Origin: a virus
DNA length: 23,343 bases
Virus record (IMG/VR): IMGVR_UViG_3300037847_000920
Span: 1 to 23,343 of that record
Direction: 5' to 3' (one strand)
The position numbers and the translations under genes were made by a program. The notes under the pieces are model-generated. The model saw only the letters and a program-made list of their open reading frames with translations. It was not told where the DNA came from and searched no databases. Positions 14,361-18,166 of the stretch are shown here, piece by piece; positions within the stretch are counted from its first letter, which is position 1, and each line of letters opens with the position of its first letter.

Positions 14361-14783
14361 TTACTCCTTGTAATAATTATGTTTTCTATGTGCAACTTTT
14401 TGTTCCCAATCTTGTATAGCTTGTCTTATACTATCTTCTGCTAGTACACTACAATGCAACTTAATTGCTGGTAGTTCTAAAGCTTCTGCTATATCTTTAT
14501 CTTTAATAAGTTTAGCTTCTTCTATAGTTTTACCTTTTAACATATCTACAAACATTGTAGAGGATGCAATAGCACTTCCACACCCATATGTTTTAAACTT
14601 GACATCTTCTATAACATCATTGTTTAATTTTATTTGTAATTTCATAACATCCCCACATGCAGGTGCACCCACCATACCTGTAGCAACATTAGGGTCTTTA
14701 GGGTCAAACCTTCCAACAGAATGTTTTGCTGGATTGTTTAAGACACTTTCAAACCTATCAACCACCTTTTGTGAATATGCCAT
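14361..14783 (-). CDS. iscU: IscU-type iron-sulfur cluster scaffold protein
   Basis: A 140-residue protein very close to bacterial IscU across its length. It has MVGAPACGDVMKLQI with Cys43 and Asp45, FKTYGCGSAIASS with Cys68, and LPAIKLHCSVLAED with Lys108, His110 and Cys111. All three cluster cysteines, the Asp, and the Lys/His pair are kept. The chaperone-binding LPPVK motif of bacterial IscU is LPAIK here. IscU holds nascent 2Fe-2S clusters made by IscS and passes them on with HscA/HscB. No other isc gene is visible, so it would depend on host partners. It sits in the late packaging operon; ATG overlaps the stop of a 25-codon frame (TAATG). It was probably acquired from a host. Confidence 0.96.
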   Translation of the reverse strand: MAYSQKVVDRFESVLNNPAKHSVGRFDPKDPNVATGMVGAPACGDVMKLQIKLNNDVIEDVKFKTYGCGSAIASSTMFVDMLKGKTIEEAKLIKDKDIAEALELPAIKLHCSVLAEDSIRQAIQDWEQKVAHRKHNYYKE

Positions 14784-15338: not shown

Positions 15339-15753
15339 ATTCCCCTTCTTCTATATCTAAAGGTTGTTTATCTGGCATTAAAAATATACCACCACTATTA
15401 ACATTATGATTTACATCAACTCGTTCTACTTTACCTACACCTACTCTATCTAATAAAGTCTGTGCAGCAGCTAGTTTGTTATTAGCCTGTATGATAGGTT
15501 TCTTAGAATCCATAATTTCTACAAGTTTAAATGCTGCTTTAGGTGCAGAGTTGGCTAATACTTCCTGAGTAAGCTCAAGTATTTCAGACTTTAAAGTCTT
15601 TACAACATGATGATAATGAGAAGAATAACCAGCAAGTTCTGCAGCTTTCTTAGCATCGCCTTGTGTTTCTACAAGATGTGTAAGAAAAGACTGTTGTTTA
15701 TCGGTTAGTTCTCTTTTACGAGTGTTATTATCTATGCTTGGAAGTATAGCCAT
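15319..15753 (-). CDS. terS: Terminase small subunit (DNA recognition)
   Basis: With ATG 15753 the protein has 144 residues. LTDKQQSFLTHLVETQGDAK (16-35) and KAAELAGYSS (36-45) form the helix-turn-helix typical of small terminases. A helical middle follows (KAAFKLVEIMDSKKPIIQAN), then AAAQTLLDRVGVGKVERVDV and a C-terminal GGIFLMPDKQ, as in many Terminase_2-like proteins. The open frame continues upstream to 15849, but the first 32 codons coincide with a promoter, so the later ATG is chosen. The transcript would start about one base before this ATG, giving a leaderless message. Small terminase selects pac sites and loads large terminase, whose gene lies 3.8 kb downstream. Confidence 0.88.
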   Translation of the reverse strand: MAILPSIDNNTRKRELTDKQQSFLTHLVETQGDAKKAAELAGYSSHYHHVVKTLKSEILELTQEVLANSAPKAAFKLVEIMDSKKPIIQANNKLAAAQTLLDRVGVGKVERVDVNHNVNSGGIFLMPDKQPLDIEEGEYENISD

Positions 15754-15760
15754 GTGTTCT

Positions 15761-15789
15761 AGTATACACTTGTATTTAAGGTTTGTCAA
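15761..15789 (-). promoter_or_regulatory. Leftward sigma70-type promoter for the late operon
   Basis: On the minus strand TTGACA (15789-15784), 17-base spacer, TATACT (15766-15761). The ATG of terS begins 8 bases after the -10 box. It is the only strong promoter upstream of the late genes and is divergent from the promoter at 15816. Confidence 0.82.
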
Positions 15790-15815: not shown

Positions 15816-15844
15816 TTGACAAATTGGAATCTGAAGTGTATAAT
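15816..15844 (+). promoter_or_regulatory. Rightward perfect sigma70-type promoter
   Basis: TTGACA (15816-15821), 17-base spacer, TATAAT (15839-15844). Start is expected near 15851. It faces away from the late promoter, with 26 bases between the two -35 boxes, so the two could be co-regulated. It reads into two hairpins and then the large inverted repeat. Confidence 0.85.
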
Positions 15845-15847
15845 AAC

Positions 15848-15893
15848 ATTGTGCCCTCCCGGGTGCAATAGTACCTTTTCTGGTACTTTTTTT
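15848..15893 (+). terminator. Two hairpins at the start of the rightward transcript; the second looks like a terminator/attenuator
   Basis: ATTGTGCCC-tccc-GGGTGCAAT (15848-15869) pairs fully with two G-U pairs; the transcript should begin inside it. Next AGTACC-ttttct-GGTACT runs into seven T (15870-15893). From 15894 to 16035 no gene is seen, only AT-rich DNA with a weak hairpin near 15950-15985. The pair may attenuate early transcription or end an RNA of about 43 bases. Confidence 0.6.
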
Positions 15894-16035
15894 ATGCCTA
15901 AAATAAATCTGTTTAGGTTTGAAAGATATTGAAGTTTTTATAGCCGGGTCGTTAACTAGATTTTAAAATAACTGGTTAATGGTTGTTTTGTATAATTTTG
16001 TATGTGTATTAGATGTATATATGCATACCTAGGGT

Positions 16036-16699
16036 GGTCTCCTGCCCACCTACTCTTAACTTTATAGTCTGTAAAAATCCCAGACCACTGGCTGACTATG
16101 ACTTTGAAAGCTTTAGAGTTAATTAGACTTCCAAGTCTTGTTGTTCTAAATAAAGCAAGATAAAGTATCGATGGGCTTTTATTTTTTATAGCTTTCAGAA
16201 GTCAATCAGCCATTAATATTGTTGAAAGCTTATTCTTATAAAAGGCAGTAGACCATAAAGACAACTTAAAAAATTTGCTAGGCAAAAGAAATATCCAAGG
16301 TCATGTGTCATTACTCTTTTTTAGCTTTCAAAGTCTCCAATATGGCTCTTTGGATTGTGGGAAACTTGAATATAATCTGGTTTACACATGTCTAATAGTT
16401 TTAAAGTGCAGTTTATATCAATGTATTTCACTCATATTTCTTTTGCCCTCGCTTTTGAAAGTCTCTCTAACTCCTGCATTTGTGCCTTCCAACAATAAAA
16501 ATCCATAGTCTATTGTTGTCAGTCTGATTTTTACTTTTCCCATGAATGACACACATTGTTTGACAAATGTGTAACCCTCATGCTTTGCGTAGAAACTGTA
16601 TTCAACTAAATTATTTCATGTGTTAGGTATACCTTAAAACTATCATATGTCTTCTCCTTGCTTTATCATTTCCACATACTTGACTTAAAAAATCAAGAG
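16036..16699 (-). pseudogene. Left arm of the foldback: non-coding inverted copy of the two right-arm genes
   Basis: Read on the minus strand, this arm lines up with the right-arm genes and their flanks but cannot encode them. The relic of the first start, with its ribosome site (CAAGGAGAA, then ATG at 16646), reaches TAA after seven codons. The relic of the second start (ATG 16435) reaches TGA after five. Many small insertions and deletions break the frames. The outer non-coding flanks are matched as well as the genes, so this is an inverted duplication of a whole segment. The plus-strand frame 16275-16508 (TTG start, no ribosome site) looks accidental. Either it is an old duplicate in decay or it is kept as an antisense or structural arm. 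Confidence 0.75.
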
Positions 16700-16776
16700 T
16701 ATACTCGAATGCTCGAGCAACTTCTCTTGATTTTTTAAATCTAAGTATGTCTTCGGAAATGCACAAGGAGAAAACT

Positions 16777-16968
16777 ATGATACTAATAAGCTATACAAAC
16801 AATGAAACAATAAGTTTCAAATCAGTTTCTACTGCAAAGCAATACACATTTGACCTTTTACAATGTGACATTCACGCAGTAAAAATCAGAGTCAACAATG
16901 GCTCTGACTTCTCATTGTTGCAAGACTACATTGCAGCGTTATATAAACTTCCAAAAAGCGAGGGCTAG
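16777..16968 (+). CDS. Small unknown protein, 63 aa (right arm, first gene)
   Basis: The start is placed at ATG 16777 because AAGGAG lies six bases before it; the in-frame ATG at 16747 has no site and falls in the palindrome tip region. The product begins MILISYTNNETISFKSVSTA and ends ALYKLPKSEG. It looks like a small alpha/beta protein (strand, helix KQYTFDLLQCD, strand AVKIRVNNGS, helix LLQDYIAAL). No family is recognised. The ribosome site and start codon are complementary to the left arm, so in a long transcript they would be paired. The next gene starts four bases after its stop. Confidence 0.72.
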   Translation: MILISYTNNETISFKSVSTAKQYTFDLLQCDIHAVKIRVNNGSDFSLLQDYIAALYKLPKSEG

Positions 16969-16972
16969 AAAT

Positions 16973-17242
16973 ATGGAAAATACATTTGATATAAACGACT
17001 ATAAAGATAGACATGGAAACCCAGCAAGTTTCCCACAATGCAGAGCCATTGGATTAAAATTTGCTAAAAAAGGTAATGTCATGAATTGGAGATTACAAAA
17101 GCAAATTACTGGTTGTCTTTATGGTCTAGCTAAAGAGAATAAGCTTACTTTTAAAAAGGCTGATAGTCTTCTGAAAGGTAAAACATTACCAAAAGCTTAT
17201 TTCGATAAAATTAAGCTTTATTTAGAACAACAAGAAAGCTAA
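16973..17242 (+). CDS. Small helical protein, 89 aa (right arm, second gene)
   Basis: The start at ATG 16973 follows AGGG eight bases upstream; the longer frame from 16898 would run through the first gene. The product begins MENTFDINDYKDRHGNPASF, then PQCRAIGLKFAKKG, NWRLQKQITGCLYGLAKENK, LTFKKADSLLKGKTLP and a Lys/Glu helix. The pattern (Gln-x-x-x-Ile/Leu ... helix ... LTxxxAxxLL) recalls short three-helix phage proteins of the DUF3072 kind, but I am not sure. It is basic and may bind nucleic acid. It ends just before a terminator. Left-arm complementarity covers the whole gene, including a 20-base perfect block at its end. Confidence 0.75.
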   Translation: MENTFDINDYKDRHGNPASFPQCRAIGLKFAKKGNVMNWRLQKQITGCLYGLAKENKLTFKKADSLLKGKTLPKAYFDKIKLYLEQQES

Positions 17243-17250
17243 AACCTTAA

Positions 17251-17288
17251 AAACTCTATGGCTCTTCAAAGTCATAGAGTTTTTTTTA
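17251..17288 (+). terminator. Rho-independent terminator after the right-arm genes
   Basis: AACTCTATG (17252-17260) pairs with CATAGAGTT (17273-17281) around a 12-base loop, followed by a run of T to 17287. It closes the two-gene unit. The matching left-arm sequence keeps the loop (TTCAAAGTCATAG complement) but has lost the stem symmetry. Confidence 0.85.
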
Positions 17289-17362
17289 TGTCTGGGATTT
17301 TTTTTAAAATAAAGTTTTTTTAATGAGTAAGACTTTTTATTTTAGTAGGTGGGCAGAAGACC

Positions 17363-17640
17363 TTTAATTAACTATTTAAGTACTTAATTAAGTTATTTAT
17401 TTTTTTAAGGAAAACGGGGTGATTTGGTTGAGGGCGAAGTGTGTCAATTGTGTGAACTTTGTGTCAATTGTGTGAACTTTGTGTTAATTATGTGTCAATT
17501 GTGCAACATTTTGTGAATTTTATGCAACAATTTTGTGAATTTTATGTGAATTTTTTGTATAAAATTTAACAATCTTTTTTAAGTTTGTTTATTATTTTGA
17601 GGCAATTTAAAATTATTTTAATCTTAAAGTTGTGCTTAAT
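17363..17640. other. Candidate replication origin: AT-rich region with direct repeats
   Basis: No gene is seen. A 12-bp palindrome TTAAGTACTTAA (17376-17387) lies in AT-only DNA, then direct repeats (separate entry), then about 90 bases of almost pure A/T (17540-17635). Iteron-like repeats next to a melting region, at the change of coding strand and beside the foldback, fit an origin. This is an inference. Confidence 0.45.
17441..17555 (+). repeat. Iteron-like direct repeats (GTGTCAATTGTGTGAACTTT)
   Basis: Two perfect adjacent 20-base copies (17441-17460, 17461-17480) are followed by degenerate ones that keep GTGTTAATTA, GTGTCAATTGTGCAAC and repeated TTGTGAATTTTATG up to 17555. The core TCAATTGTG contains the palindrome CAATTG. 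No CRISPR spacing is present. Confidence 0.82.
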
Positions 17641-18060: not shown

Positions 18061-18089
18061 TTGACAGCACAAACCAAAAATGCTATAAT
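18061..18089 (+). promoter_or_regulatory. Perfect sigma70-type promoter for the 18.2-19.3 kb genes
   Basis: TTGACA (18061-18066), 17-base spacer, TATAAT (18084-18089) within GCTA-TAAT-TAGC. Start is expected near 18096. It lies 29 bases after the previous stop and about 110 before the next ATG. Confidence 0.9.
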
Positions 18090-18124
18090 TAGCGAACAGA
18101 ACGACACAAAGATTTACCAATTTG

Positions 18125-18166
18125 ACTACTTTTAAAGGGTAAAAGTAGTAGTGCTAGGTATCACTA
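18125..18166 (+). promoter_or_regulatory. Leader hairpins before the coiled-coil gene
   Basis: ACTACTTTT-aaagggt-AAAAGTAGT (18125-18149) forms a 9-bp stem; its last base starts a second hairpin, TAGTG-ctaggtat-CACTA (18149-18166), so the two may compete. A CTGCC and T-run follows (18171-18179). It may protect the mRNA 5' end or attenuate transcription. Confidence 0.5.

Follow-up and report, generated by a model that had tools for sequence, protein, structure and literature searches.

A giant imperfect foldback with one coding arm, kept under selection and exchanged as a cassette between related podophages

The genome studied here, that of a podophage with 32% GC, contains an imperfect foldback of more than a kilobase, in which one arm codes for two small proteins and the other is non-coding and is kept for its pairing with the first. 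We analysed the whole 23,343-nucleotide stretch of this genome, referred to as the window, together with contigs of related uncultured ocean phages. The structure of the foldback and the selection acting on it can be read from comparison of the relatives, and from these we infer that the minus strand is transcribed and that its RNA has a function. The explanation that we tentatively favour, while stopping short of calling it probable, is an allelic foldback cassette whose self-locked minus-strand antisense RNA controls genes 1 and 2 in an allele-specific, immunity-like manner.

The foldback, its two genes and its locus

Self-alignment of the window gave a single unbroken anti-diagonal from 16058 to 17316 (E=8e-141; 1354 columns, 69% identity, 190 gap columns), confirming the giant 1.3-kb imperfect foldback of the preliminary description. 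The mirrored outer non-coding flanks claimed there were also found, and the outer 19-bp ends (16036–16054 and 17344–17362) are complementary at 95%. When the region 16036–17362 was folded as RNA, the energy was −506 kcal/mol for the plus strand and −549 kcal/mol for the minus strand, compared with −288 ± 9 kcal/mol for 12 dinucleotide shuffles of the minus strand; the fold lies more than 20 standard deviations below these shuffles. In the minus-strand fold of the window, 376 of the 500 pairs span more than 300 nt. The two intact genes described earlier are indeed confined to the right arm, and the non-coding left arm holds no intact copy of either (Table 1).

Table 1. Features of the foldback and its surroundings in the window
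Feature	Position	Strand	Remarks
Divergent promoter of the small terminase gene	15750..15789	−	TTGACA..TATACT
Consensus promoter followed by a perfect terminator	15816..15893	+	TTGACA-17-TATAAT
Conserved left-edge block	15943..16054		in relatives GTCGGGGCGTTAACTAG..CTGGTTAATG..ATAGATATATAGGGTAGAGGG..TGGTCTCCTGCC
Left arm, non-coding degenerate complement of the right arm	16036..16700		self-alignment and fold
Apical loop region	16701..16723		TATACTCGAATGCTCGAGCAA; minus-strand fold
Right arm (gene 1, gene 2, plus-strand terminator)	16724..17362		self-alignment and fold
Gene 1, 63 aa	16777..16968	+	ATG start; beta-beta-alpha-beta-alpha fold predicted, pLDDT 91
Gene 2, 89 aa	16973..17242	+	ATG start; mostly helical prediction, pLDDT 80
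Intrinsic-terminator-like hairpin and T run, 3' of gene 2	17255..17290	+	
Tandem repeats, 20-bp	17440..17554		TGTGTCAATTGTGTGAACTT; candidate replication origin region

The ATG starts chosen for genes 1 and 2 lie slightly downstream of the mechanical ORF starts (16747 and 16898, respectively). Because these starts are conserved among relatives, dN/dS is low (0.18–0.53 for gene 1 in informative pairs, 0.05–0.39 for gene 2) and the structure models are confident for gene 1 and fair for gene 2, we conclude that both are real, conserved proteins under purifying selection. Hairpins related to the terminator behind gene 2 are also found 3' of this gene in relatives. The predicted fold of gene 1 had no match in the PDB and belongs to no recognisable family, gene 2 had no match in Pfam, PHROG or the PDB, neither gene was found in the cultured phage collection, and no relatives of gene 2 were found in the bacterial genomes searched. 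Family searches showed no likeness to any transposase. Type I toxin-antitoxin systems consist of a small toxic protein, usually a membrane protein, and an antisense RNA; genes 1 and 2 encode small proteins with predicted soluble folds and no match to a toxin family.

By large terminase, the nearest cultured relatives of the source genome are the Pelagibacter phages HTVC115P, HTVC104P and HTVC103P (64–67%), followed by HMO-2011-type phages at below 50%. The packaging genes run leftward and end with the small terminase gene (TerS), the early genes run rightward from 17778, and the order TerS, foldback, o17790 is fixed across relatives. Because all relatives share this locus and genes 1 and 2 resemble no transposase, we rejected a transposon or MITE with terminal inverted repeats, which would be expected to have a transposase, variable insertion sites and target duplications. 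Elsewhere in the window, an IscU/NifU-like iron-sulphur scaffold protein gene (14361–14783) stands among the packaging genes and is 77% identical at the DNA level to the iscU of two Acinetobacter phage records, and 39-bp repeat arrays at 800–1565 in the structural region are probably part of a repetitive virion protein gene on the minus strand.

A foldback was present, always at the same site, in all 64 related contigs that have gene 2 and readable upstream DNA. The first scan with gene 2 yielded 48 viral contigs, all 48 with the foldback, which was detected by BLAST in 44 and at lower stringency and by folding in L040–L043. A profile scan added 17 contigs, 14 of them positive by BLAST and two (L088 and L089) by folding; L084 was left unjudged, since the contig starts too near gene 2. 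When right arms less than 10% different were counted as one allele, the 61 long cases, including the window, made up 28 alleles, and within each of these the arms match at 75–87% of aligned positions. The two near-complete genomes contain no other large foldback, and no giant foldback was found in the terminase-side regions of HTVC115P, HTVC104P, HTVC033P and HMO-2011.

As the left-edge block is partly present in cultured HTVC115P, which itself has no foldback, we assign it to the backbone. When we scanned with this block, three contigs (L099, L104 and L136) came up in which the two-gene cassette, ~1.2 kb after the left-edge block, is very dissimilar (gene 2 13–15% identical). In all three, pairing of the left region takes in gene 1 and the beginning of gene 2, in L104 and L136 also the far end, and most of gene 2 stays unpaired. 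These partial foldbacks fold beyond chance (z −12 to −20), and a partial foldback thus seems to recur with other genes at the same locus.

Co-evolution of the arms and strand bias of their mismatches

The left arm aligns best to its own right arm (for the window, 240, compared with 75 for the right arm of L004), and left arms of different clades scarcely align to one another. In a four-way alignment of the window with its close relative L003, 57 right-arm changes fall at paired sites: 30 are compensated to a Watson–Crick pair, 13 give a minus-strand G-U, 4 give a plus-strand G-U and 10 break the pair. The bulges are common to both. Similar compensation was seen in other pairs, for example between L014 and L015 (63 of 98). 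Covariation that maintains pairing, as looked for in structured RNAs, is thus present, and the proposal that the left arm is kept for pairing has held up: every relative with readable DNA retains a paired left arm, with compensatory change. A recent inverted duplication in decay, or an assembly artefact, would fit a left arm devoid of intact genes, but the same feature occurs in more than 60 contigs from many samples with compensatory changes, and we regard this explanation as practically ruled out.

The positions of mismatches and bulges are unrelated between distant clades. We therefore rejected a fixed internal-loop architecture, whose loop positions should have been kept; what persists is a long imperfect duplex and no particular set of loops. 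Long perfect runs exceed the independent-site expectation, so avoidance of long helices as evasion of RNase III was also rejected, these runs being enriched and not depleted. Uninterrupted stems of more than 30 bp are nearly absent. This argues against a dsRNA decoy aimed at RNase III of the host or at a different factor that senses dsRNA. Only the size of the duplex speaks for such an idea, which the preliminary description had put forward for host RNase. Such a decoy needs no coding arm, strand-specific wobble or symmetric allele exchange; we found no specific support for it and consider it very improbable.

The mismatches between the arms are unequally distributed between the strands. Over the 28 alleles, plus-strand A-C mismatches, which are G-U pairs on the minus strand, outnumber G-T mismatches by 807 to 339. 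They are in excess in 22 alleles and in deficit in 5 (sign test p=0.0015); the excess is individually significant in 13 alleles (p<0.02), and no allele is significantly reversed. In roughly half of the alleles, among them that of the window with 20 A-C and 14 G-T, the bias is not significant. The minus-strand fold is up to 230 kcal/mol more stable than that of the plus strand (L004: −664 vs −430).

In a controlled test on strand-biased alleles, we kept the right arm fixed and compared close relatives for changes in the left arm. Transitions that lead to a minus-strand G-U were found at 9.1% of sites overall (10.4% facing C, 8.5% facing A) and those that lead to a plus-strand G-U at 2.7% (3.2% facing G, 2.4% facing T), with 7.1% for transitions in bulges; transversions amounted to 4–6% at paired sites vs 9.3% in bulges. 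Five non-overlapping pairs gave 100:23 for left-arm changes (p=5e-10). The A-C mismatches are equal at the three codon positions, and the bias lies in the coding parts of the arms (266:31), whereas the outer parts have none (19:16). A simple mutation bias is not expected to act in this way, because whether a given A/G or C/T change is frequent depends on the base opposite: G-to-A and T-to-C are raised, and C-to-T and A-to-G lowered, by the facing base only. As minus-strand G-U pairs are tolerated and the mirror-image changes are not, it appears that a minus-strand hairpin is under selection, most likely as RNA. On one reading, the A-C mismatches also leave the mRNA of the genes free for translation.

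Concerted evolution at the DNA level, in which hairpin-templated (quasipalindrome) repair copies one arm onto the other and the RNA has little or no function, would account for the excess of long perfect runs, for loops that turn over fully between clades and for the absence of strand bias from roughly half of the alleles. The creation and maintenance of hairpins by template switching have been described (PMC8794818). However, templated repair does not predict a minus-strand wobble bias set by the facing base and not by the type of mutation, nor pair-breaking changes that are rarer at paired sites than in bulges, and it leaves unexplained why a 650-bp non-coding arm persists in every relative. 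It may contribute; as the explanation of the foldback we hold it possible, but not probable.

Exchange of the cassette and the adjoining control region

The foldback is swapped between phages as a whole, and the breakpoints are symmetric. Between L004 and L005, the flank on the TerS side differs by 0.1% and the other flank by 0.0%, while their left arms are 25% and their right arms 16% different; with such flanks, hypermutation was rejected in favour of an allele swap. Similarly, L009, L014 and L018 share a backbone (0.7–1.3%) that carries three foldbacks, 27–33% apart in the left arm and 22–26% in the right. The reverse case, nearly the same foldback on backbones 7–15% apart, was also observed. 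In addition, exchange can be nested: in the inner half of L009, which comprises gene 1 with its partner, both arms agree with L005/L008 (0–1% and 4–5%), and in the outer half, with gene 2 and the partner of gene 2, both agree with L068 (1% and 7%), the remaining combinations being 18–54% apart. L038/L039 is a second nested symmetric exchange. One double crossover centred on the loop explains each nested case if its ends fall at paired positions, which would be expected if mismatched recombinants were lost or if folded DNA recombines. Different alleles swapped as a unit on near-identical backbones are what is looked for in an immunity or incompatibility cassette.

The promoter at 15816, a perfect one of the sigma-70 type, is followed within ~25 bases by a perfect terminator-like sequence, AGTACC-TTTTC-TGGTACTTTTTTT (15870–15893), and so it probably drives a short RNA in the window, with a candidate length of roughly 40 nt. 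All aligned relatives keep the promoter, but its terminator is found only in the window's own clade; 15816–15893 is nearly unchanged in L003, and the terminator is replaced in other clades. A plus-strand hairpin RNA or a left-arm antisense RNA from this promoter, the first of which had been proposed in the preliminary description, found no support: in the window the terminator intervenes, and the wobble bias of the family favours the opposite strand. A long hairpin RNA controlling the two genes is still the leading idea, although probably not one made from the gene strand or from this promoter. To the right of the foldback, a promoter-like motif that points leftward, TTAACAAACTTAAG-ATATA-TTATA, stands back to back with the early promoter in many of the relatives; in the window its form is weak. 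Further along, at 18061–18160, a second consensus promoter (TTGACA-17-TATAAT) precedes a conserved non-coding stretch rich in hairpins, which may be a further small RNA or a leader.

The site beside the foldback is a candidate replication origin. In several relatives, arrays of the DnaA box TTATCCACA take the place of the tandem repeats of the window. Two to four exact boxes lie to the right of the foldback in several alleles, with clusters 100–300 bases to its right in L004, L005, L015 and others, and the near-complete genome G003 has only two copies in all (27782 and 27803), both beside the foldback. The cumulative GC skew reaches its global minimum at the foldback in both near-complete genomes, G001 (which has a 161-bp terminal overlap) and G003; this minimum is also the transcription divide.

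The earlier suggestion of a cruciform near an origin agrees in position with this candidate origin, and we retain a DNA element as a rival: a single-stranded or cruciform origin element in which the unwound minus DNA strand would fold for initiation, priming or strand switching. The skew minimum in two genomes and the boxes adjoining the foldback in several alleles, in G003 nowhere else, favour it, and in DNA, too, G-T pairs are tolerated better than A-C. On the other hand, many of the pairs are of the G-U type (~12% in L004), which is usual in RNA and costly in DNA stems, the strand bias falls mainly in the coding part of each arm, and the skew minimum coincides with the transcription divide. 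We consider such an element rather unlikely.

A model for the cassette and its relation to known systems

A leftward hairpin RNA would account most simply for the strand bias. In the model that we favour, a single long RNA would be transcribed from the minus strand, starting on the origin side and running leftward, with the antisense of gene 2 and then gene 1 first and the sense-like left arm second. This RNA would fold on itself at once into a hairpin of ~600 interrupted base pairs and would control genes 1 and 2. Its antisense half is perfectly complementary to its own mRNA but to the left arm at just 75–87%, so that a cognate mRNA could, as far as energy is concerned, displace the left arm and be silenced, whereas the mRNA of a foreign allele, 15–30% different, could not. 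Since swapped right arms are 16–26% apart, close to the arm mismatch of 13–25%, recognition would be allele-specific; this step belongs to the model. The outcome would be an immunity- or incompatibility-like switch adjoining the replication origin, which is consistent with the swapping of cassettes between otherwise near-identical phages.

A more elaborate possibility is that the RNA serves as a sensor of self and non-self, in which only mRNA of the same allele displaces the left arm from the antisense half. The arm mismatch would then set the threshold of recognition, and diversifying selection between co-infecting phages would drive the swapping of whole foldbacks. We think this unlikely. 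Alternatively, the left arm might do nothing but lock an unavoidable leftward late antisense transcript and so spare genes 1 and 2. Such self-neutralisation would explain why the minus strand pairs, why the match is imperfect and why the foldback lies upstream of the leftward terminase operon; it does not alone explain the swapping of alleles, and its late promoter is putative. This we judge more doubtful still. Among templated repair, an origin DNA structure and self-neutralisation, more than one may be true.

Lambdoid-type immunity cassettes, the P1/P4 c4-CI RNA and ColE1 RNA I/II are immunity or incompatibility loci. Like them, the cassette has divergent alleles swapped on near-identical genomes, a proposed antisense logic and a position at a control region or origin; it differs in that no repressor-operator or short antisense RNA was identified and in that its arms exceed 600 nt. 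A search of the whole window against Rfam (cmscan, gathering thresholds) gave no matches, GOLLD and ROOL included. GOLLD, ROOL and OLE are likewise large phage or bacterial RNAs, of unknown function and supported by covariation (PMC12286853). Their folds are ornate and multi-domain, whereas the foldback is one linear hairpin with a coding arm.

Outside bacteria, the hpRNA loci of Drosophila offer a parallel: their long inverted-repeat RNAs have matches to protein-coding genes and act in genetic conflict (PMC10292708, PMC10317233). In the phage, too, one arm matches protein-coding genes, the right arm being genes 1 and 2 themselves. The Drosophila hpRNAs, however, silence in trans through Dicer and siRNA, while in the phage cassette the coding genes form one of the arms and the RNA would come from the opposite strand. 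We know of no RNAi machinery in the phage host. The coding palindromes of Nematomorpha mitochondria are also inverted repeats in coding DNA kept by selection or conversion (PMC6649704), but these are perfect and short (arms up to 142 bp) and both arms code, as opposed to one coding arm in the phage.

In the open-access literature searched we found no description of such an element, in agreement with the initial impression that no phage element like it had been described. As far as we found, a coding arm faced by a non-coding arm kept only for pairing is undescribed in phages or bacteria; long hairpin RNAs, antisense RNAs and immunity cassettes are each familiar, but to our knowledge they have not been described in combination with a coding arm. 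Should the RNA reading be true, the foldback would represent a new architecture of regulatory RNA, and should the DNA reading be true, a natural case of kilobase-scale templated repair that keeps two arms matched. Strand-specific selection on wobble pairs and an immunity-like swapping of alleles are found here together in a widespread group of marine phages.
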